From a virus: 28,771 nucleotides of DNA. Shown here one piece after another: positions 9,180 through 28,771 of this stretch. Under the pieces are notes generated by a model that saw only the letters and a program-made list of their open reading frames with translations, ran no database searches and was not told the DNA's origin. The stretch is from the IMG/VR virus record IMGVR_UViG_3300025087_000260, positions 1 to 28,771 of that record, one strand, 5' to 3'. Position 1 is the stretch's first letter, and every line of letters starts with the position of its first letter. The translations under genes and the position numbers were made by a program.

Positions 9180-9499
9180 AATATATTTTCATCATATTTT
9201 GCCTTGTATTAAGTGGGTGTGGTGTATTAAGGGACGCGAGAAGTTACAGGAATTATTGGGTTAAAAATTCGGTTGGTTTCATGTGCCTTCAATGCGCTTT
9301 TAATGGGAGGGCTGAAAGAGCGCGTATGGTAGCCCAGGGCGGTGAAGATCGGTGCTTCAAATGTGAGCGAGGTCATTCCTTTTGGATTTTCATGGATAAA
9401 TTTGATTCAAAGGAATACTATTATCACAATGAAATGCGCAATCTTTCCCAATACAAAATAAGTGTTTGGATAGATGATGAGTATGGTATAAAGCCATGA
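9176..9499 (+). CDS. Phage-encoded lipoprotein with zinc-ribbon-like cysteines
   Basis: AAAAGGAGAAG precedes the ATG. Residues 1-15 form a lipoprotein signal with the lipobox L12-S13-G14-C15, so Cys15 should be lipidated and the mature protein anchored to a membrane. The mature part has C37-x2-C40 and C60-x2-C63 followed by His67, a possible zinc ribbon or two disulfides once outside the cytoplasm. It could be an outer-membrane spanin (Rz1-like), but it is longer than usual, lacks the Pro-rich linker and has no Rz-type partner nearby. A superinfection-exclusion lipoprotein is an alternative. Confidence 0.65.
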   Translation: MKYIFIIFCLVLSGCGVLRDARSYRNYWVKNSVGFMCLQCAFNGRAERARMVAQGGEDRCFKCERGHSFWIFMDKFDSKEYYYHNEMRNLSQYKISVWIDDEYGIKP

Positions 9500-13203: not shown

Positions 13204-14541
13204 ATGGATAATGTGGCGTTAAACATCATTTTGCACGCAAACCAGAAGAAGATACACGCTTCTGGAGCGAGGTTTAACGTTATTAAGGCTGGGAAGCGTT
13301 TTGGCAAGACGAAATTGGCGTTATATCGGGCGTGTCAGAAGGCGGAGATGCCGAATCGGGTGATCTGGTACATAGCTCCGACTTACAAGCAAGCCAAGAA
13401 TATAGCCTGGTGGGAATTGAATTGGATGTTGCCGAAGCATATTGTAAATCGTTCGATTGAGAATGAGCTTTTCAAAGAGCTTCACAATGGAACCAGGATT
13501 CAATTGATTGGGGCTGATAATGAGGATTCGTTGCGCGGGCCAAAGCTTGACCATGTTGTTTTGGATGAGGCCGCCTACCAGAAGGAGTATGTATGGTCTG
13601 GGATCATATCAGGGCAGTTGTTGGGGTCTGGAGGCAGTGAGCCTGGGACGGCTGATTTTATATCCAGCCCGAACAAAACGGGGAGGAATTGGTTTACCAA
13701 CTTTCACGCGGAAGCCAGGAGGAAGCAGGAAGCTGGGGACAAGGATTGGGCGGCGCATTTTTACACGATTTACGATAATCCGACATTAAACCGCGAGGAG
13801 ATAGAGAAGTTGAAGGAGAACACTCCTGATGACACGTGGAATCTTGAGTATATGGCTCAGGAATCCGAGTATGCCGGCCAGTTGTATGGGGAGTTTGATT
13901 CTGAGAAGAACATGGGAGAGTATCAGGGCAAAGACGCACTCCCTGCTTTCAGGGTTATAGACTGGGGAATTGCCCATCCTACGGTATGTTTGTGGGCGAA
14001 GCTGGATATTCTCACGAAGACGATTTATTTTTACGATGAATTTGTCAAGAGCGGGCTAGTGATAGCGGAGAGTTGCGCGATGATTAAGCAGATCACCGGC
14101 CGGACTCCGATTGACTGGACTGTTATTGATCCTTCCACGGCCAAGAGGAACTCTCAAACGGGCAGGAGTGATTCCGTAGAGTTTGCCCGCAATGGCGTAA
14201 CGTGCATACCAGCCGACAACCGCGACAGGGGTTACGACGTGGCGAAGATGTTTTTAAAGAAAGGCATGGTGAAGATCAGCCCGAAGTGCAAGGAGTTGAT
14301 TTACGCTTTAAAAAACGTGCAGAGGGGAGATAAAGAGGGTGATGACACAACAGATTGCGCGAGGTATCTTATTTTGAGGATTCACGATTATATAAATGGA
14401 ATGAACGTCTTTGATCATGAGCAGGTTATTTCCAGACCGCAAGTTATTGGAGACGAGATCAATTTGAACGATGACGGATTATTTCCAAAAAGAAATACTG
14501 AGTCAAAAAATATGCAGTGGGAACTTAGTGAGGTGGCATGA
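13204..14541 (+). CDS. Terminase large subunit (packaging ATPase and nuclease)
   Basis: The 445-residue protein has Walker A AGKRFGKT at residues 29-36, Walker B HVVLDEAAY with D121 and E122, and the coupling motif ISSPNK near 157-162. The RNase H-like nuclease follows: first Asp in FRVIDWGIAHP, second in WTVIDPSTAKR, and third in GDDTTDCARYLI. All catalytic acids are present. It pumps DNA into the prohead through the portal and cuts it to length. Length is normal for compact podovirus-type TerL. The ATG has no clear Shine-Dalgarno, unusual for an essential gene, and it follows a strong stem-loop. Confidence 0.96.
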   Translation: MDNVALNIILHANQKKIHASGARFNVIKAGKRFGKTKLALYRACQKAEMPNRVIWYIAPTYKQAKNIAWWELNWMLPKHIVNRSIENELFKELHNGTRIQLIGADNEDSLRGPKLDHVVLDEAAYQKEYVWSGIISGQLLGSGGSEPGTADFISSPNKTGRNWFTNFHAEARRKQEAGDKDWAAHFYTIYDNPTLNREEIEKLKENTPDDTWNLEYMAQESEYAGQLYGEFDSEKNMGEYQGKDALPAFRVIDWGIAHPTVCLWAKLDILTKTIYFYDEFVKSGLVIAESCAMIKQITGRTPIDWTVIDPSTAKRNSQTGRSDSVEFARNGVTCIPADNRDRGYDVAKMFLKKGMVKISPKCKELIYALKNVQRGDKEGDDTTDCARYLILRIHDYINGMNVFDHEQVISRPQVIGDEINLNDDGLFPKRNTESKNMQWELSEVA

Positions 14542-14710: not shown

Positions 14711-16669
14711 ATGGACTTACTCGACCAATTTTCTAATCCCCTACAGGCAATATCCGAGACGCCGGTTATTCCCGGCATGCCTTCCATTATTATTCCCGAG
14801 CCTTTCATTTTATCCGAACAGAATACTTTGCATTTGGAGAAGATTCGGGATGAGGTGATGGATAAGCAGAAGGCCTGCGAGAACGATCTGGTCAAATTCT
14901 ACGGCGAGTATGAGGAGTTCGAGCAGAGCTGGAGGATACAGCCGAAATCCGGGCCCAGGCCGAAGGGATTGTCGAACACGAAGTCAGGGGAGACTCACAG
15001 AGCTACAGAGACGATGGCGACGCTGTGGTTTAGAATGATGACAGCCCAGGACAGATTTTTCGATTCCGTTAAAAGCGGGCTCGATCCGTCAGGCAGGGAA
15101 TTGACGGAGAGTGATCTTTACATGGTCGAAGAGACTTTGCTTCATCAGCTCAGGAAGACTCATTTTAAGAAGAACCTCTTAAATTCACTCAGGTCTTTGG
15201 GGCTTTTCGGGACGTTGATTTTTGAAGAGCCGTGGGTGAGGCGTTTGAACGTGGATGGACAGACGTACTTTGAAGGAACCGGGTTTCAGATGAGGTCTAT
15301 CATTCAAATGTTTTTCGATACGATGGTTCCTGATTTGGAGATGAGCGATTTCATGGGGTCGGTTGACTATCCGACGATTTGGAGACTGAGGCAGTGGGCG
15401 AAGAACGACTCTTCCGTATGGGACAAGAGCGCGATAGAAAAGAAGTTGTCGGAGTATAAAGATTCTTCAAAGAATTCCGTGAATTCAGTGACCACGGGAA
15501 CGGACGTTTTGAACCGGATCAGGACGAGGATGCAGAGGGCGGGATATGCGAATTTGGACAACAACATTCGAGAGTTAATCAGTTACCACGGAAAGATAGA
15601 TACTGACAATGAGGTCGTTCAAAAGTATTGGGAGTCTGAGAACAGAACGGACGACCCCCAGGATTATGATTTTACTGTTGGAATACTAGACGGAGACCCT
15701 ATTGTGAAGTTTCACGTTACGCAGTACGGAACGTGGAGATCGAAATTTAAAACTTGCACATGGAAGAACCTGGAGCTAGAGCCTTTGGGTTACGGAGTCG
15801 GGAAGATCGGTCAGAAAGGTCAGGCTGAGCTTGATACTGTCGGTTCGAGGGCTGACGACGTTTTGAAGTTTTCTCAATACATGATGTGGAAAGTTGGGAG
15901 GTACGCTGGACTCAAGTCGAGTCAGTTGACGATCAAACCCTGGAACATCGTAGAGTTAGACGATATCAATCAACTCGAACCCATAAGGCCTGATTTAAAC
16001 GCCATTGTCCAGGCTTTGGCCGTGATGGCAGGCAAGAGGGAGGAATTCAGGAGCAACACCGGAGCCAGCTCCAATCTTCAAGCCGTTCTAACGAAGGCCA
16101 CGGCCACGGAGTCATCTATAACCCAGACTGAGGCTATCAGGGCGGCGAGCGTTTACGCCGAGATCATGGCTGAGATTCTTATCAGGGATCATTTGGAGCA
16201 GATGCATATCAACAATCTTGATAATTTGGATGAAGACATTTGGGTTTCCGTTACAGGGGAACCGATGCCGCGGCGGGTTAATAAGAACGTCCTCCCGAGG
16301 AACATTGGATTCGAGATAAAAGTAACGACTGATAAAGACTTCAGACCTGAGAGGCTTCAAAAGATTTTAGAGACTTTGCAGATGGCCACGAGCATCAGGA
16401 ATGACATTCCAGAGTCGATCAATATCGTGAGGCCTCTTTTCGAGGAACTTTTAAGAGCTATGGGAATGAATCCGCGTCTTTTGAATGAAGCTCAGCCGAT
16501 GGGAGATTTTTTGGCTTCGCGTATGCGCAGGATGGAGAGGATTGGAGCCAATCCTCAACTGCTTGGCAATGAAGTCGAAGGCGAGGCCGCAAGCGCAGGC
16601 CAGGGAGGCGGGATAACGACTCCTGTCGGAGAAGTGCCTACGAGCCCAATATCTCCGGTATACGCATGA
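14711..16669 (+). CDS. Portal protein (head-tail connector)
   Basis: The 652-residue length, the position right after TerL and the sequence fit a podovirus-type portal. The NTKSGETHRATETMATLWF segment near residues 95-113 followed by a MMTAQDRFF helix is typical of the clip/wing part in this class. The C-terminal third has a long helical region (ATESSITQTEAIRAASVYAE) and a Gly-rich end. Twelve copies should form the ring at one capsid vertex through which TerL drives DNA. ATGA coupling to the next gene. Confidence 0.88.
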   Translation: MDLLDQFSNPLQAISETPVIPGMPSIIIPEPFILSEQNTLHLEKIRDEVMDKQKACENDLVKFYGEYEEFEQSWRIQPKSGPRPKGLSNTKSGETHRATETMATLWFRMMTAQDRFFDSVKSGLDPSGRELTESDLYMVEETLLHQLRKTHFKKNLLNSLRSLGLFGTLIFEEPWVRRLNVDGQTYFEGTGFQMRSIIQMFFDTMVPDLEMSDFMGSVDYPTIWRLRQWAKNDSSVWDKSAIEKKLSEYKDSSKNSVNSVTTGTDVLNRIRTRMQRAGYANLDNNIRELISYHGKIDTDNEVVQKYWESENRTDDPQDYDFTVGILDGDPIVKFHVTQYGTWRSKFKTCTWKNLELEPLGYGVGKIGQKGQAELDTVGSRADDVLKFSQYMMWKVGRYAGLKSSQLTIKPWNIVELDDINQLEPIRPDLNAIVQALAVMAGKREEFRSNTGASSNLQAVLTKATATESSITQTEAIRAASVYAEIMAEILIRDHLEQMHINNLDNLDEDIWVSVTGEPMPRRVNKNVLPRNIGFEIKVTTDKDFRPERLQKILETLQMATSIRNDIPESINIVRPLFEELLRAMGMNPRLLNEAQPMGDFLASRMRRMERIGANPQLLGNEVEGEAASAGQGGGITTPVGEVPTSPISPVYA

Positions 16670-16986: not shown

Positions 16987-17215
16987 AATGATGGAAGCGC
17001 CGGAAGCGTCTCCTTTGGATGATATTATTTCAAAGGTTGAGTCGTACATTCAAGACCCGAAGATGGCAACGTCGGAAACTTTGGGAGAGTTGAAAGCCGA
17101 TTTGATTGATTTGAAGTCGGTGATTGACGAAGAAGAAAAGCCGGAAGGCATGGATGAAGACATGGGCAAAGATCGGGATGGAGGACTTGCCATTATGATC
17201 GGGAGGAACAAATGA
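16976..17215 (+). CDS. Acidic hypothetical protein, 79 aa
   Basis: AAAGGAGG precedes ATG 16976 by 5-6 nt, which decides the start against an earlier in-frame ATG at 16919. The chain is strongly acidic with short helices (SPLDDIISKVESYIQDPKMA, then GELKADLIDLKSVIDEEEK) and a Met-Asp-rich tail. Small acidic proteins in this position can be scaffold-like or portal chaperones; this is only inference. Confidence 0.65.
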   Translation: MKDEMMEAPEASPLDDIISKVESYIQDPKMATSETLGELKADLIDLKSVIDEEEKPEGMDEDMGKDRDGGLAIMIGRNK

Positions 17216-17628
17216 AGCGTTTAATTTTAAGTCTGATTTTATGTCTCGCTGTTTCTGAGGTCTATGCCGGATGGCCTCCGACCCGCGAAGAGTGGATGAA
17301 CACTCCGAGTCCGTCTTATAGTTCGCAGGGCGTTTATCGTTCCACTCAAATGACGCTCTTGTATGTTTCAACGTGGGCGGCGGTCATAAGCACTTATGCC
17401 AGTGTCTTCCATACGGCTTGGATAAGTTCGCCAGTGGCTAATTCGTGGATTGACTTTTACGATAGTAGACTGACGACGGTGGCATATCTTGCGCCTTTGA
17501 TGTTTTCAATCGACAATTCAAGAACATGGCAATATCCTCAGTTTGACGTGTTTTTTGCAAGTGGCATAGTTGCCATGCCTAGAGGACAAAGCAATCCGAA
17601 TTCCGGGTTCTCTTACAGAGAGAGATAA
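17212..17628 (+). CDS. Exported virion-module protein with signal peptide (paralog of the 20320 gene)
   Basis: ATG overlaps the previous stop and GGAGG lies 8 nt upstream. Residues 1-19 are a textbook Sec signal (MKRL, hydrophobic core, cleavage after VYA). The mature part of about 119 residues is beta-type and rich in Ser, Thr and aromatics, with no cysteines. Residues 65-90 (VFH...P.A...WIDFYDS..TTV) match residues 62-88 of the exported protein after the capsid gene, so the two are probably paralogs of one fold. It may be a capsid decoration, a fibre or a protein shown on the host envelope. Function not known. Confidence 0.75.
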   Translation: MKRLILSLILCLAVSEVYAGWPPTREEWMNTPSPSYSSQGVYRSTQMTLLYVSTWAAVISTYASVFHTAWISSPVANSWIDFYDSRLTTVAYLAPLMFSIDNSRTWQYPQFDVFFASGIVAMPRGQSNPNSGFSYRER

Positions 17629-17630
17629 AA

Positions 17631-18515
17631 ATGAGGCAGGAGCTTTTGAATATCCTTCATTTGAATCGGGAAAAGATCATTCCTAAAGACATAAAAAAGG
17701 AATATGACTTTTCCGTTCTTGTGGTTCCGTGCGTTCATCGGGGTGTAGACCCTGATACGTGGGAAAGCCTTATTCCTCTGCTTTTCTGTAAAAATCCCAG
17801 GATAGTGGTGAAGTTTAGAAGCGGAGATGCTTTGATTGACCGGTCAAGGAGCATAGTAGCCTCAAGGTTCCTTGAAAGCGATTTCGACATTCTTCTTTTC
17901 ATTGACGATGACATTATTTTCGATCCAAAAAAGATCGGAGCCATGCTTCAAGTGATGTGGAAAGAGAAACTCGACATATGCGGCGCGCCATACGTTAAGA
18001 AACAGCCCGAAAAGACCCACTTTGCTATCAAGCTGCTTGACGAGGCTCCGGTGATTCCTTTCGGGGAAAGAGAGGGAGCGATTTGCGAGGTAAGGATGAT
18101 TTCCACCGGATGCATGGCAATTCAAAGATGGGTTTTACAGGAGATGGCGGATAAAGAGATCGTCCATAAATGCCACATTCATGACGCCAAATTTTACCCG
18201 TTTTTCAAGCCGGAAGAAGCGCAATTAGAGAATGGCAACTGGATTTATTTGTCAGAAGACTGGGCATTTACCGAGAGAGCGCGAAAGTTAGGATTTAAAG
18301 TCTGGTGCGACACATCCCAAAAGCTTGGCCACGCCGGCCGGTACGTTTACGCGTGGGATGATATGAAAACCAAGAAAAGACATCATCTTGACAATGGCAA
18401 GTATTGGGAAGTAGACGGAACAATGCCCGATTTCAAGGAAATAGAAGACCCGAAGGAACAGATTTCCGGGGTGACTATCAATCAACCCGAGGCCGTGATA
18501 GCGGCTGTGAAGTAA
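17631..18515 (+). CDS. GT-A fold glycosyltransferase (family-2-like)
   Basis: The 294-residue protein has a GT-A start (VLVVPCVHRGVDPDTWE), a substrate-side segment FRSGDALIDRSRS and the metal-binding DxD-type motif FIDDDIIFDP with D92-D94. The later segment LSEDWAFTERARKLGFKVW near residues 207-225 carries the acidic catalytic-type ED. It has no membrane segment, so it acts in the cytoplasm on a nucleotide-sugar donor. Lying between an exported protein and the scaffold gene, it most likely glycosylates a virion or exported phage protein; the acceptor is not shown by sequence. Confidence 0.85.
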   Translation: MRQELLNILHLNREKIIPKDIKKEYDFSVLVVPCVHRGVDPDTWESLIPLLFCKNPRIVVKFRSGDALIDRSRSIVASRFLESDFDILLFIDDDIIFDPKKIGAMLQVMWKEKLDICGAPYVKKQPEKTHFAIKLLDEAPVIPFGEREGAICEVRMISTGCMAIQRWVLQEMADKEIVHKCHIHDAKFYPFFKPEEAQLENGNWIYLSEDWAFTERARKLGFKVWCDTSQKLGHAGRYVYAWDDMKTKKRHHLDNGKYWEVDGTMPDFKEIEDPKEQISGVTINQPEAVIAAVK

Positions 18516-18525
18516 AGGAGCGACA

Positions 18526-19425
18526 ATGCTACAAACAGAGACGCAGACGTTTACCTCCCCCGTAGTTGAGGGAGTTGTGCCTGAAAGCACATCGCAGGCG
18601 ACTGAGCCAACCCCGAAAGAGGAAGTTCAGCCGCAAGAAACTACTCCTGCTAAGGTCGATAGCAAGGAACAACCTACTTCAAGTTTAACCACAGAGAGGC
18701 CGAGACCGTCTGACCATTACCGTCAGAGGAAGGAGCTTCAAGGTTTGAGAAATCAAATGCTTGAAATCCAGAAAACGATCGAGGCTATAAAAACTAAGGA
18801 AACACCCTCCGTGGAAAAGCCGAAGTCTCAGGAATTTGATAACGATAAGTTTTGGGGCAATCCGTTGCAATATATGACGGAGAGGGAAAAGACTATAAGA
18901 GAAGAACTGTCAAAAGAACTTCTCGAAAAAGGCCTTCCAGAAGCCCTGAAGAATCGTGAACAGAAGATCGAGACTGAACGGAATGGACAAGAAGCGTTGG
19001 AATTGATTTTCCCTAAAACGGACAATCCAAGAGAAACGCTGAAAGAAAGAATCCAGAAGGACAAAGTACGAGCTGAAAGGATGGAAGAAATCCTCTATGA
19101 AGAAGATGAGGGTTTCAGTTTGGATAAGTTAAGTGTAACTTATCCGAAACAGGCCGCGAAGTTAGCTTTGCAGGAATACGCAAAGCGATACCCTGAGCCT
19201 GCTAAAAATCCCAACGCTCCGAAAAAAGCCCAAATGGAATCTACTTCCACATCTCAACCCGTGGGTGGGTCTAAGACTCTTTCCACTGACGAGATAGCAT
19301 CCCAATACCAGCAGATGACCAAGCAGTTGGGTGATAACCCTGGTCTTTTGCAGGACGAGAAGTTTAAATCAAAATGGGACGCTTTAAAGCTTGAGATTGC
19401 CAATGCTCAAAAGGGAAATCAATAA
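18526..19425 (+). CDS. Capsid scaffolding protein
   Basis: The 299-residue protein lies directly before the capsid gene. Residues 1-60 are Pro/Thr/Glu-rich and disordered, the centre is a long charged coiled coil (RQRKELQGLRNQMLEIQKTI), and the end is a short helical domain (LLQDEKFKSKWDALKLEIAN). Disordered start, helical middle and C-terminal capsid-binding helices are typical of phage scaffolds, which guide coat assembly and then leave. A diverged copy of its last 30 codons is found near 22317. GGAGCGAC lies before the ATG. Confidence 0.82.
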   Translation: MLQTETQTFTSPVVEGVVPESTSQATEPTPKEEVQPQETTPAKVDSKEQPTSSLTTERPRPSDHYRQRKELQGLRNQMLEIQKTIEAIKTKETPSVEKPKSQEFDNDKFWGNPLQYMTEREKTIREELSKELLEKGLPEALKNREQKIETERNGQEALELIFPKTDNPRETLKERIQKDKVRAERMEEILYEEDEGFSLDKLSVTYPKQAAKLALQEYAKRYPEPAKNPNAPKKAQMESTSTSQPVGGSKTLSTDEIASQYQQMTKQLGDNPGLLQDEKFKSKWDALKLEIANAQKGNQ

Positions 19426-19446
19426 AGAAGTAAAAAGGTAAATAAT

Positions 19447-20304
19447 ATGGCTGTATATACAAACGCTACATTAAACAACATCACCATACCCAACAAGTTC
19501 GATATGGACGTTCTGGAAGCTCGTTACGCCGCTGGCGTACTCTTTCCGAAGGTCTTGAATAAATCGCAACTTGTGAAAGAAAACGGACTTCGGGTTTCAA
19601 TCGAGATCGAGCCTACTTTCACGGCCGGAACGGTGTCAGTTGGCGGGGCTTTCACGCCTACCAACGACGCTCCGTCTCAGGTCAATCTCACGTTGAATAC
19701 TTGGATTTACGTTGCGGCTGAAATTGACAGACAGGCTGAAGCTCAGTCTTTCTGGCAACCCACCGAAAGGCTGGGGAAGGCCGCTGGGAAAGCTATGGGT
19801 GTGCGTTACGACACTGACTTGTTTGCGCTTCATGGAAGCCTGACTTTGACTGCTGTCGGAGATGCGACCACTGGAGGAACTTTCGATGATGGAATGGCGA
19901 GGATCGCGATGCTTCGCATTTCCGACGCCAACATTCCGAAAGACTCTCTTAATTGGTTCCTGCCTCCCGTTGCTTTTTACAACGGATGGTTTTCCAAAAC
20001 GGAACTGACGGCGGCTTACAGTACTGGACAATCGAAGAACGCCAACATGACGGACTTCAGACCAACCATACTGGGAGCTCCAGCGCATGAGTCAACGCTA
20101 GTAACAACCGTAGGAGACGTGCGTAAGGGCTTGCTGTTGCACAAACAAGCTCTTGCTATCGCAATGCAGATCGAGAATGAGCTTGAACAGGCCAGCCGAG
20201 TTGCGGCTAACAACCTCTCAAAGGTTGCTGTTGTCCATTCTCTCATCGGTGTCGCTGTTCCCAGAACGGATCACGGCGTCGTGTGTAACATCAAAGCCAC
20301 ATAA
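19447..20304 (+). CDS. Major capsid protein
   Basis: The 285-residue protein follows the scaffold gene as in most tailed phages. It has an N-arm, an opening FDMDVLEARYAAGVLFPKVL, an alternating beta pattern (GLRVSIEIEPTFTAGTVSVG), a helix rich in Ala (AGKAMGVRYDTDLFALHG) and a C-terminal domain, consistent with a compact HK97-fold coat protein of the podovirus/P22-5-like type. Hundreds of copies would form the shell. No signal peptide, in contrast to its neighbours on both sides. Assignment rests on position, length and pattern. Confidence 0.85.
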   Translation: MAVYTNATLNNITIPNKFDMDVLEARYAAGVLFPKVLNKSQLVKENGLRVSIEIEPTFTAGTVSVGGAFTPTNDAPSQVNLTLNTWIYVAAEIDRQAEAQSFWQPTERLGKAAGKAMGVRYDTDLFALHGSLTLTAVGDATTGGTFDDGMARIAMLRISDANIPKDSLNWFLPPVAFYNGWFSKTELTAAYSTGQSKNANMTDFRPTILGAPAHESTLVTTVGDVRKGLLLHKQALAIAMQIENELEQASRVAANNLSKVAVVHSLIGVAVPRTDHGVVCNIKAT

Positions 20305-20319
20305 AAGGAGGTAACTGAA

Positions 20320-20808
20320 ATGAAGAAATACATTCTGGTTGCCGCCGTTATGTGCTTGATGTTTGGGAAGGCGGAGGCAGGGGATAAGAGGAACACTCCC
20401 TACGGCCCAAGTCAAGCCCTTGCGAGCGCAGACTACGGCGGTGTTGACGTGAGTACGTTGTCATTGAGCGCATCCTTAAAACTTGCGTTCATTGGCGAAG
20501 GAGTATTTCATGGCGTTAATATGACGACGCCAACGGCCTTGAATGAATATGTCGACGTCTTTGATTCCAGCTCAACAACTGTTGGACTCGACGGCGGGAT
20601 TGGTGATTATCCCCAATCGAGCACTTTCATTCCAATAGCCCGTATCTATAACAGCACTCAGGCTGTTACATCACCTGGCACAGTTTATCCAGGTAATGTT
20701 ATTGGATTGAAGTACCCTCTCAGGGTAAAGAATGGACTGGTGTTTAAATACCAGGTCAATACTTTATACCTGTTGAGCGTACTCTACACTAAGTACCCTG
20801 ACCAGTAA
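20320..20808 (+). CDS. Exported virion-module protein with signal peptide (paralog of the 17212 gene)
   Basis: AAAAGGAGGTAACTG precedes the ATG. Residues 1-20 are a Sec signal peptide (MKKY, hydrophobic core, cleavage after AEA). The mature 142 residues are beta-rich in Ser, Thr, Gly and Tyr. Residues 62-88 (VFH...P.A...YVDVFDS..TTV) match those of the exported protein upstream of the scaffold. It ends in a stem-loop that may terminate transcription, so it is expected to be expressed strongly with the capsid gene. A decoration or surface protein is likely; how a signal-bearing protein joins a cytoplasmic capsid is unclear. Confidence 0.78.
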   Translation: MKKYILVAAVMCLMFGKAEAGDKRNTPYGPSQALASADYGGVDVSTLSLSASLKLAFIGEGVFHGVNMTTPTALNEYVDVFDSSSTTVGLDGGIGDYPQSSTFIPIARIYNSTQAVTSPGTVYPGNVIGLKYPLRVKNGLVFKYQVNTLYLLSVLYTKYPDQ

Positions 20809-20824
20809 TTTGTAAACACTTTCC

Positions 20825-20858
20825 GGGGGATCGTGTCTAAAGAATCCCCCACAATTTT
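20825..20858 (+). terminator. Stem-loop after the capsid/exported gene pair
   Basis: GGGGGAT (20825-20831) and ATCCCCC (20844-20850) form a perfect 7-bp GC-rich stem with a 12-nt loop, followed by ACAATTTTA. The U-tract is short, so termination may be partial, letting some transcripts reach the tail genes. Confidence 0.6.
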
Positions 20859-21134
20859 ATGACAAACTGTAAGACGTGCGGAAAAGTGGAAAAGAACGAC
20901 GGCAGAAAATATACAAGGACTTTCTGCGATTCGTGCGTTTCCGATAAAAAAATCGGTGTTTCAAAGATCATCGAAATGGTTTTTCTGAAAGGTTACGGAA
21001 TGGTGGAAAAATCCAGGTTGAGGGAGATGGACAGGAGAGTTATTCTGCCATACAAACACCCTGAGAGCGGATGTTATTATTTGGGTCGTAAAGGGGAAAA
21101 TAATAAAATTTCTGAGAAGTGGCCGTCATATTAA
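20859..21134 (+). CDS. Zinc-binding hypothetical protein, 91 aa
   Basis: ATG follows the stem-loop directly, with no clear Shine-Dalgarno. The N-terminal 30 residues carry CKTCGKVEK and CDSCVSDKK, two CxxC pairs 20 residues apart, a typical small zinc ribbon. The rest is helical and basic with a second Cys and Tyr-rich end. Possibly a DNA- or protein-binding adaptor. No family recognised. Confidence 0.6.
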   Translation: MTNCKTCGKVEKNDGRKYTRTFCDSCVSDKKIGVSKIIEMVFLKGYGMVEKSRLREMDRRVILPYKHPESGCYYLGRKGENNKISEKWPSY

Positions 21135-21146
21135 AGGAGGCGTAAA

Positions 21147-21557
21147 ATGGCAAGACCGGAAGAAATTACAGAAGTTTTGAAGCAATTGATGGTATTGTGC
21201 AGACAGGTAACCGAATGGGCGTCGTCGGAAAATGTCAGTTACAGAATGCTGAAAGACGACATTTCAGCGATCTCTCAAAAGCATCAGGATTTAATTAGGC
21301 AGACTCAGGAGATCGAGAAATACAATCTTGACTTGAAAAAACAGTCAGAAGGAATTATCTCAAAAGCGCAAATGGAGGCCGATCAAATACGTCATCTGGT
21401 TAGGGAGAAGCTAGCCGAAGCCCATAAAAAGGAGGCGATAGCCGCCATGACGGTGGAAAAGGCCAATCAAGCCAAGTATCTGGCGGAGAAGAAACTTGAT
21501 GAAGTTGTCGAGAATTACGCAAAGGCAGAAAAAGATAAAGTTAAGAATGGAAAATGA
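21147..21557 (+). CDS. Coiled-coil protein, 136 aa, in the head-tail module
   Basis: AAAGGAGG lies about 6 nt before the ATG. Residues 35-135 are one long charged helix with heptads (KHQDLIRQTQEIEKYNLDLK, then EKANQAKYLAEKKLDEVVEN). It overlaps the adaptor gene by ATGA. Such coiled-coil proteins here may be scaffolds for the neck or internal virion components. Function not known. Confidence 0.65.
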   Translation: MARPEEITEVLKQLMVLCRQVTEWASSENVSYRMLKDDISAISQKHQDLIRQTQEIEKYNLDLKKQSEGIISKAQMEADQIRHLVREKLAEAHKKEAIAAMTVEKANQAKYLAEKKLDEVVENYAKAEKDKVKNGK

Positions 21558-22273
21558 AAAAAACACTCCAACAACTTATCGCTCAGGATAGGGTTTTAAT
21601 AAGCCAGCCCGATCCTGCCTTTTCCGATTTCACAGACGCGGAATTGAGGGGATTCAACAACGAGGGTCTTCAATTCATCGCCGCCAGGATAGAATGGCCG
21701 AGGGATCAGGTGTCCTATCAGGCAGAGGTTGGAGTGCCTTCTTACCCGCTGCTGTCAGACACGTTGAAGATCAGGACGGCGTATTTTGGAGACGTTAGCA
21801 TTGCCAGAGACATGACGCCGTTGACCATACTTGACGAATCCCAATTAAAAGAGGTCGTACCTGGATGGCTGGACGCCACGACATCCTCGCGCGGCAAACC
21901 AAGTAGAATAATTCTTCTTGACCGGAAAACGATCCTGGTGCATCCCACGCCAGACACCGACAATTCCGCTTCCGGTAAAAAGATATACCTGGGGTACGTT
22001 TACTATCCTGCGGCTTTAGCCGCCGATGGCGATTATCCAGACTTACCGGATATTTACCATGATGAGTTAAAACTGTACGTTGGGCATCTTTGTTACATGG
22101 GGAAGTTGAAAAATCCGACATTAGCGACTTCAATGCTGGATATGCTCATTAAAAAAATCGACTTATTGAAGCCTCCTTTGCTGGATGGATTTGAAGAAAA
22201 AAGCTGGCAATGGGGAGATTACGACGGTCAAATGAGGGCAAATAACGGATTGGCCGATCTTACTTTGGGGTGA
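21554..22273 (+). CDS. Head-tail adaptor (connector) protein
   Basis: The 239-residue protein has the layout of podovirus adaptors such as P22 gp4-type proteins: a helical start (KKTLQQLIAQDRVLISQPDP), the pattern FTDAELRGFNNEGLQFIAAR, a beta-rich centre with PLLSDTLKIRTAYFG and ILVHPTPD, and C-terminal helices. It should bind below the portal and help hold DNA in the filled head. Its last 13 codons are repeated 187 bp downstream by the duplication described at 22230. Confidence 0.78.
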   Translation: MKKTLQQLIAQDRVLISQPDPAFSDFTDAELRGFNNEGLQFIAARIEWPRDQVSYQAEVGVPSYPLLSDTLKIRTAYFGDVSIARDMTPLTILDESQLKEVVPGWLDATTSSRGKPSRIILLDRKTILVHPTPDTDNSASGKKIYLGYVYYPAALAADGDYPDLPDIYHDELKLYVGHLCYMGKLKNPTLATSMLDMLIKKIDLLKPPLLDGFEEKSWQWGDYDGQMRANNGLADLTLG

Positions 22274-22321
22274 TAATATGATACCTAAAAGCACTCAAAC
22301 CGCAGTTAAGAACAGGGATAA
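22230..22321 (+). repeat. 92-bp direct repeat, copy 1
   Basis: Identical over 92 bp to 22417-22508. It covers the last codons and stop of the adaptor gene, the gap, and the first 14 codons of the next gene. Identity without a single change suggests a recent event or ongoing homogenisation. Confidence 0.97.
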
Positions 22322-22409
22322 CCCGGGTCTTTTGCAGGACGAGAAGTTTAAAGCGAAATGGGACGCTATAAAACTTGAGATTGCCAATGCTCAAAAGGGA
22401 AATCAGTAG
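22278..22409 (+). CDS. Chimeric 43-aa ORF: start of the 22465 gene fused to scaffold C-terminus
   Basis: The first 13-14 residues (MIPKSTQTAVKNRD) are identical to those of the 62-aa gene at 22465. From residue 14 the sequence follows the scaffold C-terminus: the last 30 residues differ from it at only two places (Ser to Ala, Leu to Ile), and the stop is TAG instead of TAA. It should yield a free copy of the scaffold helix that binds coat protein. The start lies 5 nt past the adaptor stop. It could be a small assembly modulator, a relic of recombination, or a population/assembly artefact. See the finding on this locus. Confidence 0.6.
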   Translation: MIPKSTQTAVKNRDNPGLLQDEKFKAKWDAIKLEIANAQKGNQ

Positions 22410-22419
22410 ATAAGTAAAA
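22317..22419 (+). repeat. Diverged duplicate of the scaffold gene 3' end
   Basis: 103 bp align without gaps to 19333-19435, with 8 substitutions that I count by eye. The match extends about 10 nt past the scaffold stop codon, so it was copied as DNA rather than kept only as coding sequence. GATAA at the left edge is shared by source and target and may be the microhomology used. Confidence 0.92.
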
Positions 22420-22508
22420 TGAGGGCAAATAACGGATTGGCCGATCTTACTTTGGGGTGATAATATGATACCTAAAAGCACTCAAACCGCAGTTAAGAAC
22501 AGGGATAA
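22417..22508 (+). repeat. 92-bp direct repeat, copy 2
   Basis: Identical to 22230-22321 with an offset of 187 bp. It restores the start of the downstream 62-aa gene. It also contains ATG (22419) followed by the 13 last codons of the adaptor frame, giving a tiny in-frame remnant of that gene. Confidence 0.97.
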
Positions 22509-22653
22509 TCCTTTTATCCCTATTAGTAACGCCACGAGCGCATGGCAGGGAGATAATTTGACCAGTGGTGAGTATGGTTTTGACGATATGGAAAGCGGGA
22601 TTCCGTTTGGAGAAGGTGAGTTTGGAGGTATCAAACATTTTGAAGGCTCTTAG
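22465..22653 (+). CDS. Hypothetical protein, 62 aa
   Basis: This is the intact copy of the gene whose start is duplicated at 22278. Weak ribosome site (TTGGGGTGATAAT). The chain is neutral to acidic, rich in Asn, Gly and Phe (NPFIPISNATSAWQGDN, then DDMESGIPFGEGEFGG), without helices of note. It overlaps the start of the gp10-like gene by 14 nt. Possibly a small neck protein; unknown. Confidence 0.6.
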   Translation: MIPKSTQTAVKNRDNPFIPISNATSAWQGDNLTSGEYGFDDMESGIPFGEGEFGGIKHFEGS

Positions 22654-24934
22654 TTTTATATTTACGATTATGATTGTTTCGCCTCTATTTTCCGAGCCGC
22701 TCCCTACAATATCGATACCCGTTGTTTTAACCGATTTTTCAGGCGGTTTAAATACGAGCGCGCCCGCGTCGAAGATAGACATAACCGAAACTCCAGACAT
22801 CAGGAATTATTACATAGACAATGATAGACTGGAAAAATCAAAAGGATTTACTCTTGTTGGAAGCACTCCGACTCTTGATAAAGTAACAAAGTTTTTCATA
22901 TTCAACAAAGAAAACGGGAGCAAGGAGTTCATCGTTACGGATTCAAGCCGCGTTTTAACAACCACTGATTTTATTACTTTTACTCTCATAAGGTCTGGAT
23001 TAAGTGGAACCACAGTGCCGGATTTTTTTCAGTTGAGGAACAAGGTCTGGTGTACGAATGGAGTTGACGCTGTATTTACATGGGATGGAACCACGGCGCA
23101 GACGTTGGATGGGACTTCCGGAACGCCTGACGTTCCCATATCAAAATTCGGAGAGTCGTTTCAGGAGAGGGCTTTCCTTTGGAATGGGGAGGGGGGAGCT
23201 TCTAATCTTAGATTTTCTTCTCTGGTGGACACCAACGCCGTTAATATTGCGCCTGACAGTTTTCTGGCATGGCCGGAGACGAACGGTCGAAATGTTGGCC
23301 AGGGAGACGGTCAGTCTGGGTCTGCTATGTGGAAGCAGGCAGGACAGCTCCAACTTGGAAAGGAACGGTCTATTTATACGCTTTTCGGGGATGATGTCTA
23401 TACTTACAATGTCGTGCCTACCAATCCAGGGGTGGGGGTTGTTTCTGATGAATCGGTTGTATTCGACCAGGACATCGTTTATTTTTTCGGGTCTCCTCCA
23501 GGGTTCTATGCGTACGATGGAAGGAACGTTAAAAGAATATCCGACAAAATACAGCCGGACATGGATTCCGTCGTAAATAATCTAGCAAAGATAATCGGGG
23601 ATACGTGGGATACAAGAACGGAGTTTGCCACTGGTGGGAGTTTTGACGGAACCACAACTACGGCATCTGGTCTTTTGACGCTTATTCCAGACGCGGAAGC
23701 TACGGATACAGATGGCAATGAAACTGGTATTTTTACACCAACCCAGGAGCAGGATATAAGAACGATACCGGAATTATTCCAGGCAAACGCAACATGGCAT
23801 GTTAGTAGAATTTCCATGACAACAAGTTTGGAAGGATGCGGCGGATCAGGCAACAGAAATGCTTATTTGAAAGTTAGAAACGAGAGGACGGGATTTATTA
23901 TTGCCGGAGGGACGATTTCCGTTCCGGCTTCCCAGACTGTTAGCTTTAGCACTTTTAATGTTTCAGATGCCAACAATTCATTCACTTCCGACGATATAAG
24001 GTTGTCGAGCTTTACAATTATAGGCGGGTGGAGCCCTCCAACTTGTACGAGAATTATTTTTTATGCTTCTCATACCATATCACTTAGTGCCAACACAACA
24101 AGTCAATTCATTTCCAACGTCGCAACGATAGCGACGATTACGTCATGGGGGACGTTTCAATCCGAGAGAGACATTGGGGATGGAGACGTTGATTATTTTT
24201 ATAGGGCGGCTACTTCGGCGGTGAATATCACAACCTATCCGTGGATTGCGGTTACTCCAGGATTGGTTATTGGCGCGACAGCGGCTTATACCCGCATTCA
24301 ATGGGCTTCTACCATGACGGGTACGTCTGAAATAGATAATGTGGTTATAAACCACAATGAGGGCGGTATTGGAGACGCGAGGCCGCTGGGGGAATTTTGG
24401 AAAAATCGCTTATGGTTTGCAGTATCAACTCAGACGACCGTGGACTCTAATTTTATTTACGTTAAATCAAAATCATCTTCAAGGAATCCATACGCTTTTA
24501 CTTTGTTTGACGGTATCAATATCAAGGCAATTGTAAACGATGCCAACGAAACATTATACGGCGGATCTGGGTCGACCGGTGATTTCTATAAACTTGACGA
24601 TGGGTTGACTTATAATGGGACTGTCTTTGAAGCCTATTACAAGACTCCTCAAATGGATTTCGGGGAGACATTTTTTAGAAAGAAACAATCTGCTTTATTT
24701 ATAAATTGCGACAGAGAAACAAGCGCGAATTTAACCGTTTCCTATTCAAATGACGGCGCGGCTTTCACTGATATCGCTTTCAGTATAAACGGAACAGGAA
24801 GGATTTTAAAATCTCTTTATGGACTTAAACAGTCTGGATTTTATTTCCAGTACAAATTCTCCAATTCTGAAAGTACGGATTTGAAGATTAACTCTTTTTC
24901 TGTTCTTTACACTCCGACGGAGATATTGCCGTGA
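22640..24934 (+). CDS. Large tail/neck protein, P22 gp10-like, with a signal peptide
   Basis: TTG at 22640 is chosen: GGAGG lies 10 nt upstream and this start yields a clean Sec-type signal, MKALSFIFTIMIVSPLFS followed by EPLP. A GTG at 22616 and an ATG at 22670 are alternatives. The mature part opens with LTDFSGGLNTSAPASKID and NYYIDNDRLEKSKGF, the pattern of large podovirus neck proteins (P22 gp10 / tail-tube-B type) with a beta-propeller core (repeats such as VWCTNGVDAVFTWDG and LSNDGV-type blades). About 765 residues fit. It should plug the portal and carry fibres. The signal peptide is very unusual for such a protein. Confidence 0.75.
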   Translation: MKALSFIFTIMIVSPLFSEPLPTISIPVVLTDFSGGLNTSAPASKIDITETPDIRNYYIDNDRLEKSKGFTLVGSTPTLDKVTKFFIFNKENGSKEFIVTDSSRVLTTTDFITFTLIRSGLSGTTVPDFFQLRNKVWCTNGVDAVFTWDGTTAQTLDGTSGTPDVPISKFGESFQERAFLWNGEGGASNLRFSSLVDTNAVNIAPDSFLAWPETNGRNVGQGDGQSGSAMWKQAGQLQLGKERSIYTLFGDDVYTYNVVPTNPGVGVVSDESVVFDQDIVYFFGSPPGFYAYDGRNVKRISDKIQPDMDSVVNNLAKIIGDTWDTRTEFATGGSFDGTTTTASGLLTLIPDAEATDTDGNETGIFTPTQEQDIRTIPELFQANATWHVSRISMTTSLEGCGGSGNRNAYLKVRNERTGFIIAGGTISVPASQTVSFSTFNVSDANNSFTSDDIRLSSFTIIGGWSPPTCTRIIFYASHTISLSANTTSQFISNVATIATITSWGTFQSERDIGDGDVDYFYRAATSAVNITTYPWIAVTPGLVIGATAAYTRIQWASTMTGTSEIDNVVINHNEGGIGDARPLGEFWKNRLWFAVSTQTTVDSNFIYVKSKSSSRNPYAFTLFDGINIKAIVNDANETLYGGSGSTGDFYKLDDGLTYNGTVFEAYYKTPQMDFGETFFRKKQSALFINCDRETSANLTVSYSNDGAAFTDIAFSINGTGRILKSLYGLKQSGFYFQYKFSNSESTDLKINSFSVLYTPTEILP

Positions 24935-25197
24935 GTAGAGATTTTGTTATCGGGCTAGTTTCAGGGATTGGATTTATGTGCATCATTGCGATGACCCCAA
25001 TCCAAAACCCCGGGCAAGACCCAAACATCAGAACTTTATTTGATCTTGTTCAAAGCAGGCAATTCCGTATTGAAATAAGTTCTCCTGAAATCAATGAAAT
25101 TCGAGAACAGGAAGTTTTACTGATGAACACTGGGGATTTAAAATTTGTTACAAGATATGGGAACGCAAGATATTTCGTTAAAATGTCTACTTTTTAG
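24931..25197 (+). CDS. Small protein with N-terminal membrane segment, 88 aa
   Basis: GTG overlaps the preceding TGA and CGGAG lies 8 nt upstream. Residues 5-22 (FVIGLVSGIGFMCIIAM) form one hydrophobic helix, either a membrane anchor or an uncleaved export signal. The remainder is soluble and beta/helix-mixed (RQFRIEISSPEINEIREQEV). It lies between the gp10-like gene and ejection-protein genes. Function unknown. Confidence 0.6.
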   Translation: MSRDFVIGLVSGIGFMCIIAMTPIQNPGQDPNIRTLFDLVQSRQFRIEISSPEINEIREQEVLLMNTGDLKFVTRYGNARYFVKMSTF

Positions 25198-25206
25198 GAG
25201 GATGAT

Positions 25207-26235
25207 ATGGCACTATCGCTAGCACAAAGAAATGAGTACGCCGCCGCTGAACAGCAGGCGCAAGCACAGCAGGCGCAAGCGGCCTTAGAAAAAGCCAAAT
25301 CTGCTCCTGGTTATAAACCGCCGGCTAGAGAAATTGATTTAAATGCCTATCTTCCTATTTATCAGAAGGCGTTTGCTGAGAATTTGGGTCAACTTGGAGC
25401 GATCAATCTTGATCCGGTAAGGTCAGGGACGGCTACTCTTATCCAGACATTCAATGCCGGATTTCAGAAAGCCAATAAAAGACCTCCCACGACGGAAGAA
25501 ACCGAAGCGTTTTTAGCGGAGAATTTGACCCCTGGATATGCGGCAGGTGTTTTGCAAGGAACCAATCAAATAGCTCAGGCCAATCAAGCGGTAAGCGGTT
25601 ATTTGCAGGCCAATCCGCTCCAAGTCGAAGGTGTTGGCGCACAGGGAGGGATTGACGCGCGGGAGCAGGAGTTAAGGAAAAGACTTGACGCTATTTATCC
25701 CGAGTTGGAAAGGAGCTTAGGTGAGCGGATCAGGGCTTCTTTCATACCCCAGAGAGAAAGATTGGCTTCAGAGGAGGCCGCCCTGGGGCGTCTACGATCT
25801 CCGGCTTCGATAGCTACTATGGCGCGATTAGACGACGCTGAGAGAGCCGCTATGACTCAAGGATTGGGACAATTAGCCGCTAATCGGGCTCAAGGCGAGT
25901 TAGGCATTGCCGGGACCATAGAAAGCATATTGCAAGCCGAAAGAGCAGGAGGCCGTCAGGAAAGCCAGTTTGCGCGTCAATTAGGGCTTCAAAATAGGCA
26001 ATTCAGGTCTGGACAAGAGCAACAGGACATTGCCAACCAACTTCAAAGACAGGAGCTTTCCATTGCCGATCAAATTGGGAGAGCACAAGCAGAAGCCAAT
26101 AAGCCGGGAACGTTGGATTATATCAATACTGGTTTTGGCGGGTTAGCCGCGCTTGGAGGACTCGGAGCTGGAGCCGGCGGGTTGGCAAGCATGGGGAAAG
26201 GCATCGGCAGTTCATTTAAGAAAAAGACGAGGTGA
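25207..26235 (+). CDS. Probable internal virion (ejection) protein, 342 aa
   Basis: AGGAGG lies 5-6 nt before the ATG. The first 35 residues are a Gln/Ala helix with a tandem CAGGCGCAAGC repeat in the DNA (AQAQQAQA). The middle is helical and polar (REQELRKRLDAIYPELERSL, QFARQLGLQNRQFRSGQEQQ), and near the C-terminus lies a Gly/Ala/Leu-rich stretch (GFGGLAALGGLGAGAGG) able to insert in membrane, before a Lys-rich end. Small Ala/Gln-rich proteins with a terminal glycine-rich segment in this position are typical podovirus ejection proteins that leave the head with the DNA. Confidence 0.68.
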   Translation: MALSLAQRNEYAAAEQQAQAQQAQAALEKAKSAPGYKPPAREIDLNAYLPIYQKAFAENLGQLGAINLDPVRSGTATLIQTFNAGFQKANKRPPTTEETEAFLAENLTPGYAAGVLQGTNQIAQANQAVSGYLQANPLQVEGVGAQGGIDAREQELRKRLDAIYPELERSLGERIRASFIPQRERLASEEAALGRLRSPASIATMARLDDAERAAMTQGLGQLAANRAQGELGIAGTIESILQAERAGGRQESQFARQLGLQNRQFRSGQEQQDIANQLQRQELSIADQIGRAQAEANKPGTLDYINTGFGGLAALGGLGAGAGGLASMGKGIGSSFKKKTR

Positions 26236-26240
26236 TTACA

Positions 26241-27275
26241 ATGGCTCTTTCAGATTTAATCCGAGAACTAGCGTATTTGAAGGCAGGCGGTCAACCTCAA
26301 GGGCAGAGGGATATTGACAAGATCAATCAGACTTTTTCTTCCGTCGGTAAATTAGGTGATGTTGGAAGACAATACGCCGCTGACACAACGGCGCAATGGA
26401 AGAATCAAGCTGAACTGGAAAAGACTCAATCTGAAACTAAGAAGAATTTGGCTACGGCGAGTCTTGCCGGACAGGGAAAGTATGTCAATCCGCTAAATGG
26501 GGCTATTTCCGATACTCCAAATGAGTCATGGATTGGTCCCGTTAGTAACGCCACGGCTTTGACGGTAGCTTCAAGGTTTAATGCCGCCGCCGCCGCAAAT
26601 GCTCCGCAACCTGTCACGACAAGAGCCGAAGCAAAGAAATCCGGAAGTGTTGCGAAGGGAACTATCATACTACCCGATCCCGAAAAACCACTACTAGAAG
26701 GCAAGACCATGACAGCCCCTTCTATCATGGCCTTGAATGAAGGCAAAAAGGCATATCTTACACTCCCAGACGTTGAAAGTGCTGTTATCAACAACAAGAG
26801 TCTATTTGGGCCAGTAAGGGGTAGGGTTGGACAGAACAATCCCTATGACACTCAATCCCAAACTGTTGACGCTCAGATGAGGGCTTCTTCTCAAGCGTTC
26901 GGTAGATTTATGGAAGGTGGAGTCTTGAGAAAAGAGGACGAGGAAAAATACAGGCATATGTTCCCAATGCTTAGCGATACATACGATGTTGCTCAAAACA
27001 AATTAAAGATCGTTCAAAAAATACTCGCAGATAAATACGAAAGCGACAGAATAGCATTGGGAAAATCTGGCTACGATGTATCGGGTTTTGAACAGTTGGG
27101 TATTCCCAAATCTTTATTTAAAACTCAGCCAACTTCTTTCGCTCCTCAAAGATCAGTACAGGAAGAAATGGCGCAAATAAATCAAGAGGCAGACGAAGCT
27201 ATTAAGGAAGGTAAAAACCCTATTCTAGTAAATAAAAGAAGACAAAAGCTTATATCTGAACTGGGTAAAAAATAA
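26241..27275 (+). CDS. Probable internal virion protein, 344 aa
   Basis: ATG at 26241 has GAGG 8 nt upstream and is preferred over GTG at 26232. The protein is polar and helix-rich with a low-complexity Ala segment (FNAAAAANAPQP) and a charged, Glu/Lys/Gln-rich C-terminus (EEMAQINQEADEAIKEGKN). It has no signal peptide, membrane segment or enzyme motif. Its position between two other internal-protein candidates and before the fibre suggests an ejection protein. Confidence 0.6.
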   Translation: MALSDLIRELAYLKAGGQPQGQRDIDKINQTFSSVGKLGDVGRQYAADTTAQWKNQAELEKTQSETKKNLATASLAGQGKYVNPLNGAISDTPNESWIGPVSNATALTVASRFNAAAAANAPQPVTTRAEAKKSGSVAKGTIILPDPEKPLLEGKTMTAPSIMALNEGKKAYLTLPDVESAVINNKSLFGPVRGRVGQNNPYDTQSQTVDAQMRASSQAFGRFMEGGVLRKEDEEKYRHMFPMLSDTYDVAQNKLKIVQKILADKYESDRIALGKSGYDVSGFEQLGIPKSLFKTQPTSFAPQRSVQEEMAQINQEADEAIKEGKNPILVNKRRQKLISELGKK

Positions 27276-28573
27276 TGGGATTATTTGACGATATACCACA
27301 GGAAAATTCTGAATCTGCTGTAACTTTGGGGATGTTTGATGATATTCCGATTGAACCTAAAGAAAAGACTACGATCGAAAAAATAAGCGAATATCGAAAG
27401 AAACCGGCAGAGTTTGCCTCTAAATTGTTAAACGTTTTGAATCCCTTTTCTGATATTGAAGAAGCGGCAGAAAAAACGACAAGGAGAATAAGTGGAATAA
27501 CTCAAGGCTCTGATACTTTAAGAACTGCCGATATTGTGCCTTTTGATCCATCAGGTTTAAGGACATTGGAGCAGGCAGGAACTGAGGTAAAAGGAGCGGC
27601 TTCCGATGTTATAGGGCGTGGAATAGAAAAAATACCTATCCCACAATTTCAAAATCCAAATTTTCAAGTGGCGGCAGAATTAGGCAGGCAGATAGGTAAA
27701 AAGATCATTCAAACTGGAATTGAAGCCGCGCCTTTTACTCCTTCTGAGTTTTCTGCCGCCGCTGGCGGGGAGATGTTGTCAGTTGCGGGATTGCCGTTTC
27801 TGGCGAAAAGAAAACAGATCGCCAAATCAATCGCAGAAGAATATGCTCCGGAATCAATAAAAGTTATGACAAAAAGGGTTAAAACAAAAGGAGCTTCTTT
27901 GGGTGAAGAACTGCTTAAAAATCCAAAATATGAAGGTTCAAGAAGGAAGGTTTTAAATAAAGCGTTAAATGAAAGGGAAGTCTTAGAAAATCAAATTCAA
28001 GATGAGCTTTCAAAAACAGCTAAAGAGGAAATTTTATCAGGGCACAACACTATAAAAAAAGATGAAATTTCAGGTGTTTTAGATGATCTTGTGAATGAAT
28101 ATAAAATTTCAGGAGTGAATGAAAGCGATGTGAATAAATTGCTAAATTTAAAAAGAATGTTTGAGGCAAATCATCCTGGTACAATGACTGTTATGACTGC
28201 AAACAGAATAAAAAGAGCTTTATATAGAAACATAGGTGATATTAATTACGTCAAAGAAAATCCAACGGCTATAATTCAGGGTGAGCAAGCTTTGGCAAGA
28301 GCATTGAGAGAAAAAATAGCTGAAATAGTACCTGCCATTCGGAAATTGAATTCAGAGCAGGGATTTGCTTTGAGGCTTATTGATTCATTGGCTCCGACGA
28401 TAGCAAAGAGTGAAAAAGCCATTGGAACTGCCATAAAAGGTGGATTTAAGGAGGCGACGGTTCTTAGAGCGGCCAGATCACAATATCGCGGAAGTCTACC
28501 GGTTAATGAACGCACAGGAATCGGACTTGGATTAGGAACAATTTTAAATCAGTTAGGAAAGGAGAACCGATGA
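27275..28573 (+). CDS. Probable internal virion protein with GxFDDIP repeats, 432 aa
   Basis: ATG lies directly after the previous stop without a strong ribosome site. The N-terminus repeats GLFDDIP (residues 2-8) and GMFDDIP (19-25), a motif seen at the start of many podovirus internal or large virion proteins. The rest is helical: an amphipathic region near 50-170, then long charged helices (LNEREVLENQIQDELSKTAK) and KRALYRNIGDINYVKEN. No lytic transglycosylase or peptidase motif is visible. It probably enters the cell with the DNA. Confidence 0.65.
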   Translation: MGLFDDIPQENSESAVTLGMFDDIPIEPKEKTTIEKISEYRKKPAEFASKLLNVLNPFSDIEEAAEKTTRRISGITQGSDTLRTADIVPFDPSGLRTLEQAGTEVKGAASDVIGRGIEKIPIPQFQNPNFQVAAELGRQIGKKIIQTGIEAAPFTPSEFSAAAGGEMLSVAGLPFLAKRKQIAKSIAEEYAPESIKVMTKRVKTKGASLGEELLKNPKYEGSRRKVLNKALNEREVLENQIQDELSKTAKEEILSGHNTIKKDEISGVLDDLVNEYKISGVNESDVNKLLNLKRMFEANHPGTMTVMTANRIKRALYRNIGDINYVKENPTAIIQGEQALARALREKIAEIVPAIRKLNSEQGFALRLIDSLAPTIAKSEKAIGTAIKGGFKEATVLRAARSQYRGSLPVNERTGIGLGLGTILNQLGKENR

Positions 28574-28771
28574 AACGCTTATTTTATCTTATGCCAATTC
28601 TATTCATAGGACAACTTTACGCCGATCAAACGACGAGCGGGGTTGGTTTGATTTTACCAACTACTGGAGCTGTGGACAGGACTCGGAGTTATGGAGATAA
28701 ATTAAACAGCAATTTTTCAATGATAGCGTCTTCTTTAACGACTGCGGATACAAGGTTAGATAACCTGGATA
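28570..28771 (+). CDS. Tail fibre protein, N-terminal part, with a signal peptide (3' truncated)
   Basis: ATG overlaps the preceding stop (ATGA) and GGAGAA lies just before it. Residues 1-18 look like a Sec signal (MKRLFYLMPILFIGQLYA, cleavage before Asp19). What follows, GLILPTTGAVDRTRSYGDKL and then NSNFSMIASSLTTADTRLDN, is the usual start of podovirus tail fibres and receptor-binding proteins (a trimer-forming beta/coiled-coil head with the layout LPxTG...D...Y...lN.Nf..I). The rest is outside the window, so receptor domains cannot be judged. Confidence 0.75.
   Translation, partial: MKRLFYLMPILFIGQLYADQTTSGVGLILPTTGAVDRTRSYGDKLNSNFSMIASSLTTADTRLDNLD

Follow-up and report, generated by a model that had tools for sequence, protein, structure and literature searches.

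The cytoplasm is taken to be the only place where tailed phages assemble their particles. In T7-like podoviruses (T7 itself and the cyanophages A-4L and Pf-WMP3, of the Saffermanviridae) the genes for portal, scaffold, capsid, adaptor, nozzle, a small protein, internal proteins and fibres stand in a common order, and the structural proteins carry no export signals. In filamentous phages, virion proteins (pIII and pVIII of M13) cross the inner membrane with cleaved signals. Here we describe a virus fragment, positions 1 to 28,771 of IMG/VR record IMGVR_UViG_3300025087_000260 (28.8 kb; this whole stretch is called the window below), the right half of which is a T7/P22-like podovirus block. Signal peptides are predicted in it on the tail nozzle, on the first tail fibre and on two small proteins, SP1 and SP2, encoded after the portal block and after the major capsid gene, respectively (Table 1). 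The best explanation of the whole, to which we give a probability of roughly 0.6, is that outer parts of the particle are exported and joined late to heads made in the cytoplasm.

The capsid protein, adaptor and nozzle of the window are podovirus homologues (families in Table 1), and the capsid protein of a relative matches A-4L, Pf-WMP3 and pelagiphage sequences in tblastn searches. The window and its relatives keep the order portal, scaffold, capsid, adaptor, nozzle, internal proteins and fibre, as in T7-like podoviruses, with SP1 and SP2 as extra genes. In M13 the entire coat is exported and the particle is extruded, whereas here the signals are on outer parts only; the capsid protein, the counterpart of the exported major coat protein that marks filamentous-type assembly, is signal-less like the other head proteins. 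The particle parts are known ones; only their proposed route is new.

The first-pass annotation of the window named four signal-like N-termini in this block (starting at 17212, 20320, 22640 and 28570), and all four are present in the sequence with good starts. With a slash marking the predicted cut, SP1 begins MKRLILSLILCLAVSEVYA/G, and its start overlaps the preceding stop (ATGA) and has a GGAGG ribosome site. SP2 begins MKKYILVAAVMCLMFGKAEA/G, with AAAGGAGGT standing before its start. The nozzle begins LKALSFIFTIMIVSPLFS/E from a TTG that has GGAGGT 10 bases upstream and overlaps the end of the open reading frame at 22465-22653. The fibre, of which 67 codons are visible before the window ends, begins MKRLFYLMPILFIGQLYA/D, also at an ATGA overlap, with an AAGGAG ribosome site. 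Every one of the four starts is therefore backed by a ribosome site, by overlap with the gene before it, or by the two together. N-termini were scored with the von Heijne/EMBOSS sigcleave cleavage matrix combined with terms for a hydrophobic core and a basic n-region, a home-made score that is not SignalP. Basic n-regions, hydrophobic h-regions and AxA-type c-regions were found at real translation starts, and three of the four window N-termini scored above the cut-off. A fifth hydrophobic N-terminus, on the small post-nozzle protein at 24931, was omitted from the earlier list; in the window it resembles a membrane segment rather than a signal that would be cleaved.

Terminase and portal profiles recovered 16 related lineages, all of them, like the later additions, metagenomic sequences. 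Four are close, with portals 44-50% identical (G001, G002, G003 and G005, the last with near-copies), and about a dozen are distant, with portals 32-35% identical. A further five were then found with a capsid profile and served as a fresh test. Signals above the cut-off were present at the SP1 position in 16/17 lineages, at the SP2 position in 13/15 (the window's own protein counted) and on 22 of 27 fibres, four of the five misses being signal-like in shape. In almost all genomes the SP2 gene lies directly 3' of the capsid gene, and many of these SP2 genes have a strong ribosome site. As the first-pass annotation had stated for the window, the inner proteins lack signals: none of 102 terminase, portal, scaffold, capsid, adaptor and internal proteins of the family passed, and the major capsid protein was signal-less in 17/17 lineages. 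Nor did any of 91 structural-region proteins from six reference podoviruses (A-4L, Pf-WMP3, HTVC112P, T7, P22 and MW202692). The background pass rate was 0.2% for internal windows and 4.6% for shuffled N-termini. Outer and inner proteins differ with a Fisher P of 7e-34, a value computed over lineages that are not independent. In the fresh test, signal-shaped N-termini were found on SP2 in 5/5 lineages, on SP1 in 3/3 (two of them above the cut-off) and on the sole fibre seen; the nozzles had none. The annotation had also named absence of these N-termini from related phages as a finding that would count against it; when compared, the relatives have them.

Two trivial sources of such N-termini were considered and discarded: wrong start calls, by the Shine-Dalgarno sites, ATGA overlaps and conserved positions, and chance hydrophobic N-termini, by the reference, inner-protein and shuffled-sequence controls. 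As a separate observation, small signal-less proteins lie beside signal-bearing ones in several relatives (L002 5385-5684, L020 3462-3761 and L048 5405, in reverse-complement coordinates) and offer a natural contrast for export determinants.

The fibres place the signal most precisely. Distant-group fibres such as that of L051 have an N-terminal module, (A)DTxTxxxxLTKPExG..WGxKxN (here ADTYTTRMGLTKPEDG), in common with gp19 of Sinorhizobium phage phiM5, a tail fibre according to its annotation, which also records its detection in the proteome of the particle. The phiM5 fibre and three others with a matching module have no signal peptide, whereas here the module is not at the protein's own N-terminus and a signal of approximately 20 residues precedes it. 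In distant-group fibres the cut is predicted at A/ADTYTTRMGLTKP, and the sequence that follows it matches the signal-less fibres from residue 2; residues 21-55 of the L051 fibre (..GYA/ADTYTTRMGLTKPEDGSTGWGTKI) align with them from residue 2 or 3 onward. As the mature end aligns with signal-less fibres, the signal is an exact addition before a known virion-fibre module. By eye, this module is more diverged in the window fibre (TTSGVGLILPTTG..GDKLNSNF).

Cysteine counts provide a second line of evidence that, like the fibre match, does not depend on signal scores. Among proteins with cysteine, SP1 has an even count in 14 cases and an odd count in none, and SP2 in seven and one, together 21 to 1, as against 22 even and 28 odd for portal, terminase, capsid and adaptor (P = 2e-5, a guide only, as the lineages are related). 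All eight SP1 and SP2 proteins from the fresh-test lineages are even. SP1 of the distant group has four conserved cysteines, with both C2 and C3 missing in L040, while L018 and L020 have another pair in common; SP2 has several different pairs that vary with lineage. Pairs are gained or lost together, and we read this pairing as the probable trace of disulfide bonds formed in an oxidising compartment. With signals conserved by gene position in about 22 lineages and missing from every inner protein, a mature fibre end that matches signal-less fibres, and paired cysteines in SP1 and SP2, export of SP1, SP2, the fibres and the window-clade nozzle is very likely on the sequence evidence. Separately, no cysteine was found beyond the first 22 residues in any of 26 internal-protein candidates or 17 scaffolds, and T7 gp15 and gp16 and P22 gp7, gp20 and gp16 are likewise cysteine-free, as if ejected proteins avoid cysteine.

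The same evidence bears on whether the N-termini are instead wrong starts, or hydrophobic segments that stay uncleaved and serve either the host membrane or the particle, which would use them for membrane contact during infection. We regard this as quite improbable. Post-nozzle segments, including that at 24931 in the window, are membrane-like and some scores are weak, but AxA-type cleavage sites with short h-regions recur across lineages, shuffled N-termini pass at only 4.6%, and Shine-Dalgarno sites and ATGA overlaps fix the starts. The paired cysteines point to an oxidising compartment, and the predicted mature end coincides with the beginning of signal-less fibres.

From the sequences we infer cleavage, location, disulfides, virion membership of SP1 and SP2, and the time and place of joining, as follows. 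Heads would be made and filled with DNA in the cytoplasm in the T7 way, from signal-less portal, scaffold, capsid, internal proteins and adaptor. The outward-facing parts (fibres, SP1 and SP2 and, in the window clade, the nozzle and its small neighbour) would be made with Sec signals, exported and cut by signal peptidase I, and would reach their folded, trimeric and disulfide-bonded state in the periplasm. Most likely, these stored parts would meet the filled heads just before lysis, once the holin has opened the inner membrane; alternatively, heads may dock at the inner membrane. In the window clade, only the adaptor and internal proteins would keep heads closed up to a late stage. The first-pass annotation had suggested late joining of such parts beyond the cytoplasm. 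The pattern agrees with this, and the export that it presupposes is well supported; particle membership and the time of joining are deductions.

The nozzle signal has a narrower distribution than the others. It was found in 5/5 members of the window clade (100/100 support in the portal tree) and in one fragment, L043, so that the neck signal reported earlier holds for these and is not general, unlike the family-wide signals of the fibres and small proteins. In the sister group, L042 and the reference cyanophages, signal-less nozzles start shortly before a common GGLNT..P motif. The frame of the G002 nozzle (L019, reverse-complement 8851-9028) has no ATG, GTG or TTG before the signal (IKSVWLLTFLLLPTVAFS/AD), which seems to begin at an ATT that follows GGAG. 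The signal on L043 may mean two separate gains, or that the portal tree does not resolve this part. The gene after the nozzle encodes an N-terminal hydrophobic extension of approximately 16 residues in 5/5 members of the window clade, absent from the sister group, as if the two proteins had changed compartment together as partners. We consider it evenly balanced whether this widespread, uncultured group of tailed phages assembles in two compartments, with one clade having moved the boundary inward to the nozzle and its neighbour. A short protein biased towards F, N, S and T overlaps or precedes the nozzle start in the window (22465-22653), L019 (4379-4633) and L023 (9667-9930).

The structural model for SP1, computed for a homologue (predicted local distance difference test score, pLDDT, 86), has the signal helix followed by eight strands in a jelly roll. 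Its nearest solved folds are nucleoplasmin-like, and among the viral proteins that match it best are small, uncharacterised ones of phages, 86-100 amino acids long and so about the size of the domain minus the signal. The SP2 model is of low confidence (pLDDT 67) with weak fold matches, which also touch the cement protein of Helicobacter phages KHP30 and KHP40 and a virus turret. All these jelly-roll matches (nucleoplasmin-type, KHP30/KHP40 cement and HTV1 turret) have Z scores of only 5-9. Together with the neighbourhood of the capsid gene, the modelled fold suggests that SP1 and SP2 may be capsid cement or decoration proteins. The motif ALATADYGGV is kept in SP2 within the window clade.

The chief rival is that SP1 and SP2 serve the host envelope. 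More broadly, the exported proteins may not be virion parts at all and may only happen to be encoded in the late operon, with a role in or outside the envelope of the infected or lysogenic cell, such as masking a receptor, excluding superinfecting phages or adhering to surfaces; we judge this unlikely. SP1 and SP2 have no family match and a generic fold, and an integrase in G001 allows for a lysogenic function. Service of SP1 and SP2 in the envelope explains neither the fibres nor the nozzle, however, and the nozzle is a structural core protein. SP2 is encoded directly behind the capsid gene in nearly every genome, and the mature N-terminus of distant-group fibres is the module of a particle-proven fibre. 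Moreover, genomes with a fibre region have hardly any fibre without a signal to take this role, so that one of those with a signal must be the virion fibre.

Bdellovibrio has relatives of phage adhesins that bear signals, the MAT fibres (PMC10769870), which are bacterial predation proteins outside any phage structural operon. The fibre genes here, and perhaps SP1 and SP2, could similarly be host-derived secreted adhesins whose signals are relics or have a host-side use. The fibre repeats resemble such proteins by eye, and SP1 gave a weak structural match to one MAT fibre tip (8ok3), among others. Against this very unlikely origin, signals are also found on phage-specific parts (the nozzle, the fibre attachment module and the post-capsid gene), and they have been kept over a divergence deep enough to leave portals 32-35% identical, over which relics would decay. 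Tailed phages do make other late proteins with export signals, namely signal-arrest-release (SAR) endolysins and spanins, for example JG068 gp47 (PMC3765740), but these are lysis proteins and not virion parts.

Several findings weigh against export of outer parts with late joining. An exported nozzle would leave the window-clade head shut only by the adaptor and internal proteins until late; we know of no precedent for such late closing. Once filled, the T7 or P22 head is closed by its nozzle. The cysteine counts of nozzles (6 even, 8 odd) and fibres (17 even, 7 odd) show no clear evenness, the latter being too weak to use. In the window, SP2 scores 8.7 against a cut-off of 10 and has charged residues in GKAEAG, and the 24931 N-terminus scores 2.6, weak on the home-made score. 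Signal-less proteins do exist: a large one in the fibre region of G003 (L020:17164), small ones at L048 5405 and L052 8845, and L002:5385, which adjoins SP1. Finally, SP1 and SP2 are placed in the virion from their gene position and common fold.

If virion proteomics confirms the late joining of exported parts, the assembly route itself would be of a new kind. Exported outer parts would amount to a second assembly site, disulfide-bonded fibres and coat proteins would be possible, and tail closure and fibre addition would become late, separable steps. Signals on fibres and post-capsid genes would serve as a simple genomic mark for finding more such phages, and gain of the nozzle signal in one clade would offer a natural experiment for locating the end of the cytoplasmic stage. 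In the open-access literature searched, we found signal peptides described on no virion protein, fibre or decoration protein of a tailed phage, and the novelty is provisional. Missing signal peptides on phage variable proteins have been taken as support for phage origin (PMC6199706).

Table 1. Structural-block genes of the window and their predicted N-terminal signals
Feature	Position	Strand	Remarks
Large terminase	13204..14541	+	no signal
Portal	14711..16669	+	no signal
SP1, 138 amino acids, between portal block and scaffold	17212..17628	+	signal peptide (predicted cut after 19) and jelly-roll domain
Glycosyltransferase-like protein	17631..18515	+	no signal
Scaffold-like protein	18526..19425	+	assigned by position; no signal, no cysteine
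Major capsid protein	19447..20304	+	PHROG 267; no signal
SP2, 162 amino acids, directly 3' of major capsid gene	20320..20808	+	signal peptide (predicted cut after 20), jelly-roll-like domain
Head-tail adaptor	21554..22273	+	PF24175 (SU10 adaptor); no signal
Tail nozzle (T7 gp12/P22 gp10-like)	22640..24934	+	PHROG 3287; TTG start; signal, predicted cut after 18
Small post-nozzle protein	24931..25197	+	hydrophobic segment at N-terminus
Internal virion protein candidate	25207..26235	+	position as in A-4L/T7; no signal, no cysteine
Internal virion protein candidate	26232..27275	+	position as in A-4L/T7; no signal, no cysteine
Internal virion protein candidate	27275..28573	+	position as in A-4L/T7; no signal, no cysteine
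First tail fibre, cut by window end	28570..28770	+	signal (predicted cut after 18) and fibre N-terminal module

Small genes also lie between the portal and SP1 genes and between the SP2 and adaptor genes of the window. In the searches, the portal profile returned 23 loci and the window terminase, as a single query, one relative; the capsid protein and nozzle as single-sequence queries returned no close relatives. Portals and SP1 had no match among reference phages, comparison of the nozzle with solved structures by sequence gave spurious matches only, and the fibres gave nothing useful against Pfam. No prophage was found when GTDB genomes were scanned with terminase and portal, and no relative was found in plasmids.

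The glycosyltransferase-like gene lies inside the structural block in the window clade, and the distant group has a gene, possibly a relative of it, ahead of the fibres. Besides 17631-18515 in the window, the loci are L002 10709, L019 8496, L020 4191, L023 13586, L050 15311 and L051 11309 (reverse-complement coordinates). The product might modify the particle or the host surface. Two small proteins in the early region of the window also have export-like N-termini, one signal-like (4015-4209; MKKLILGIAIGLALALSGKVIAGC) and one lipoprotein-like (9176-9499; MKYIFIIFCLVLSGCG). A DUF5675 protein, in one case weakly like a YkuD L,D-transpeptidase, is encoded 3' of the structural genes in several relatives (L022 18266-18703, L018 716-1111 and L048 6632-7075).

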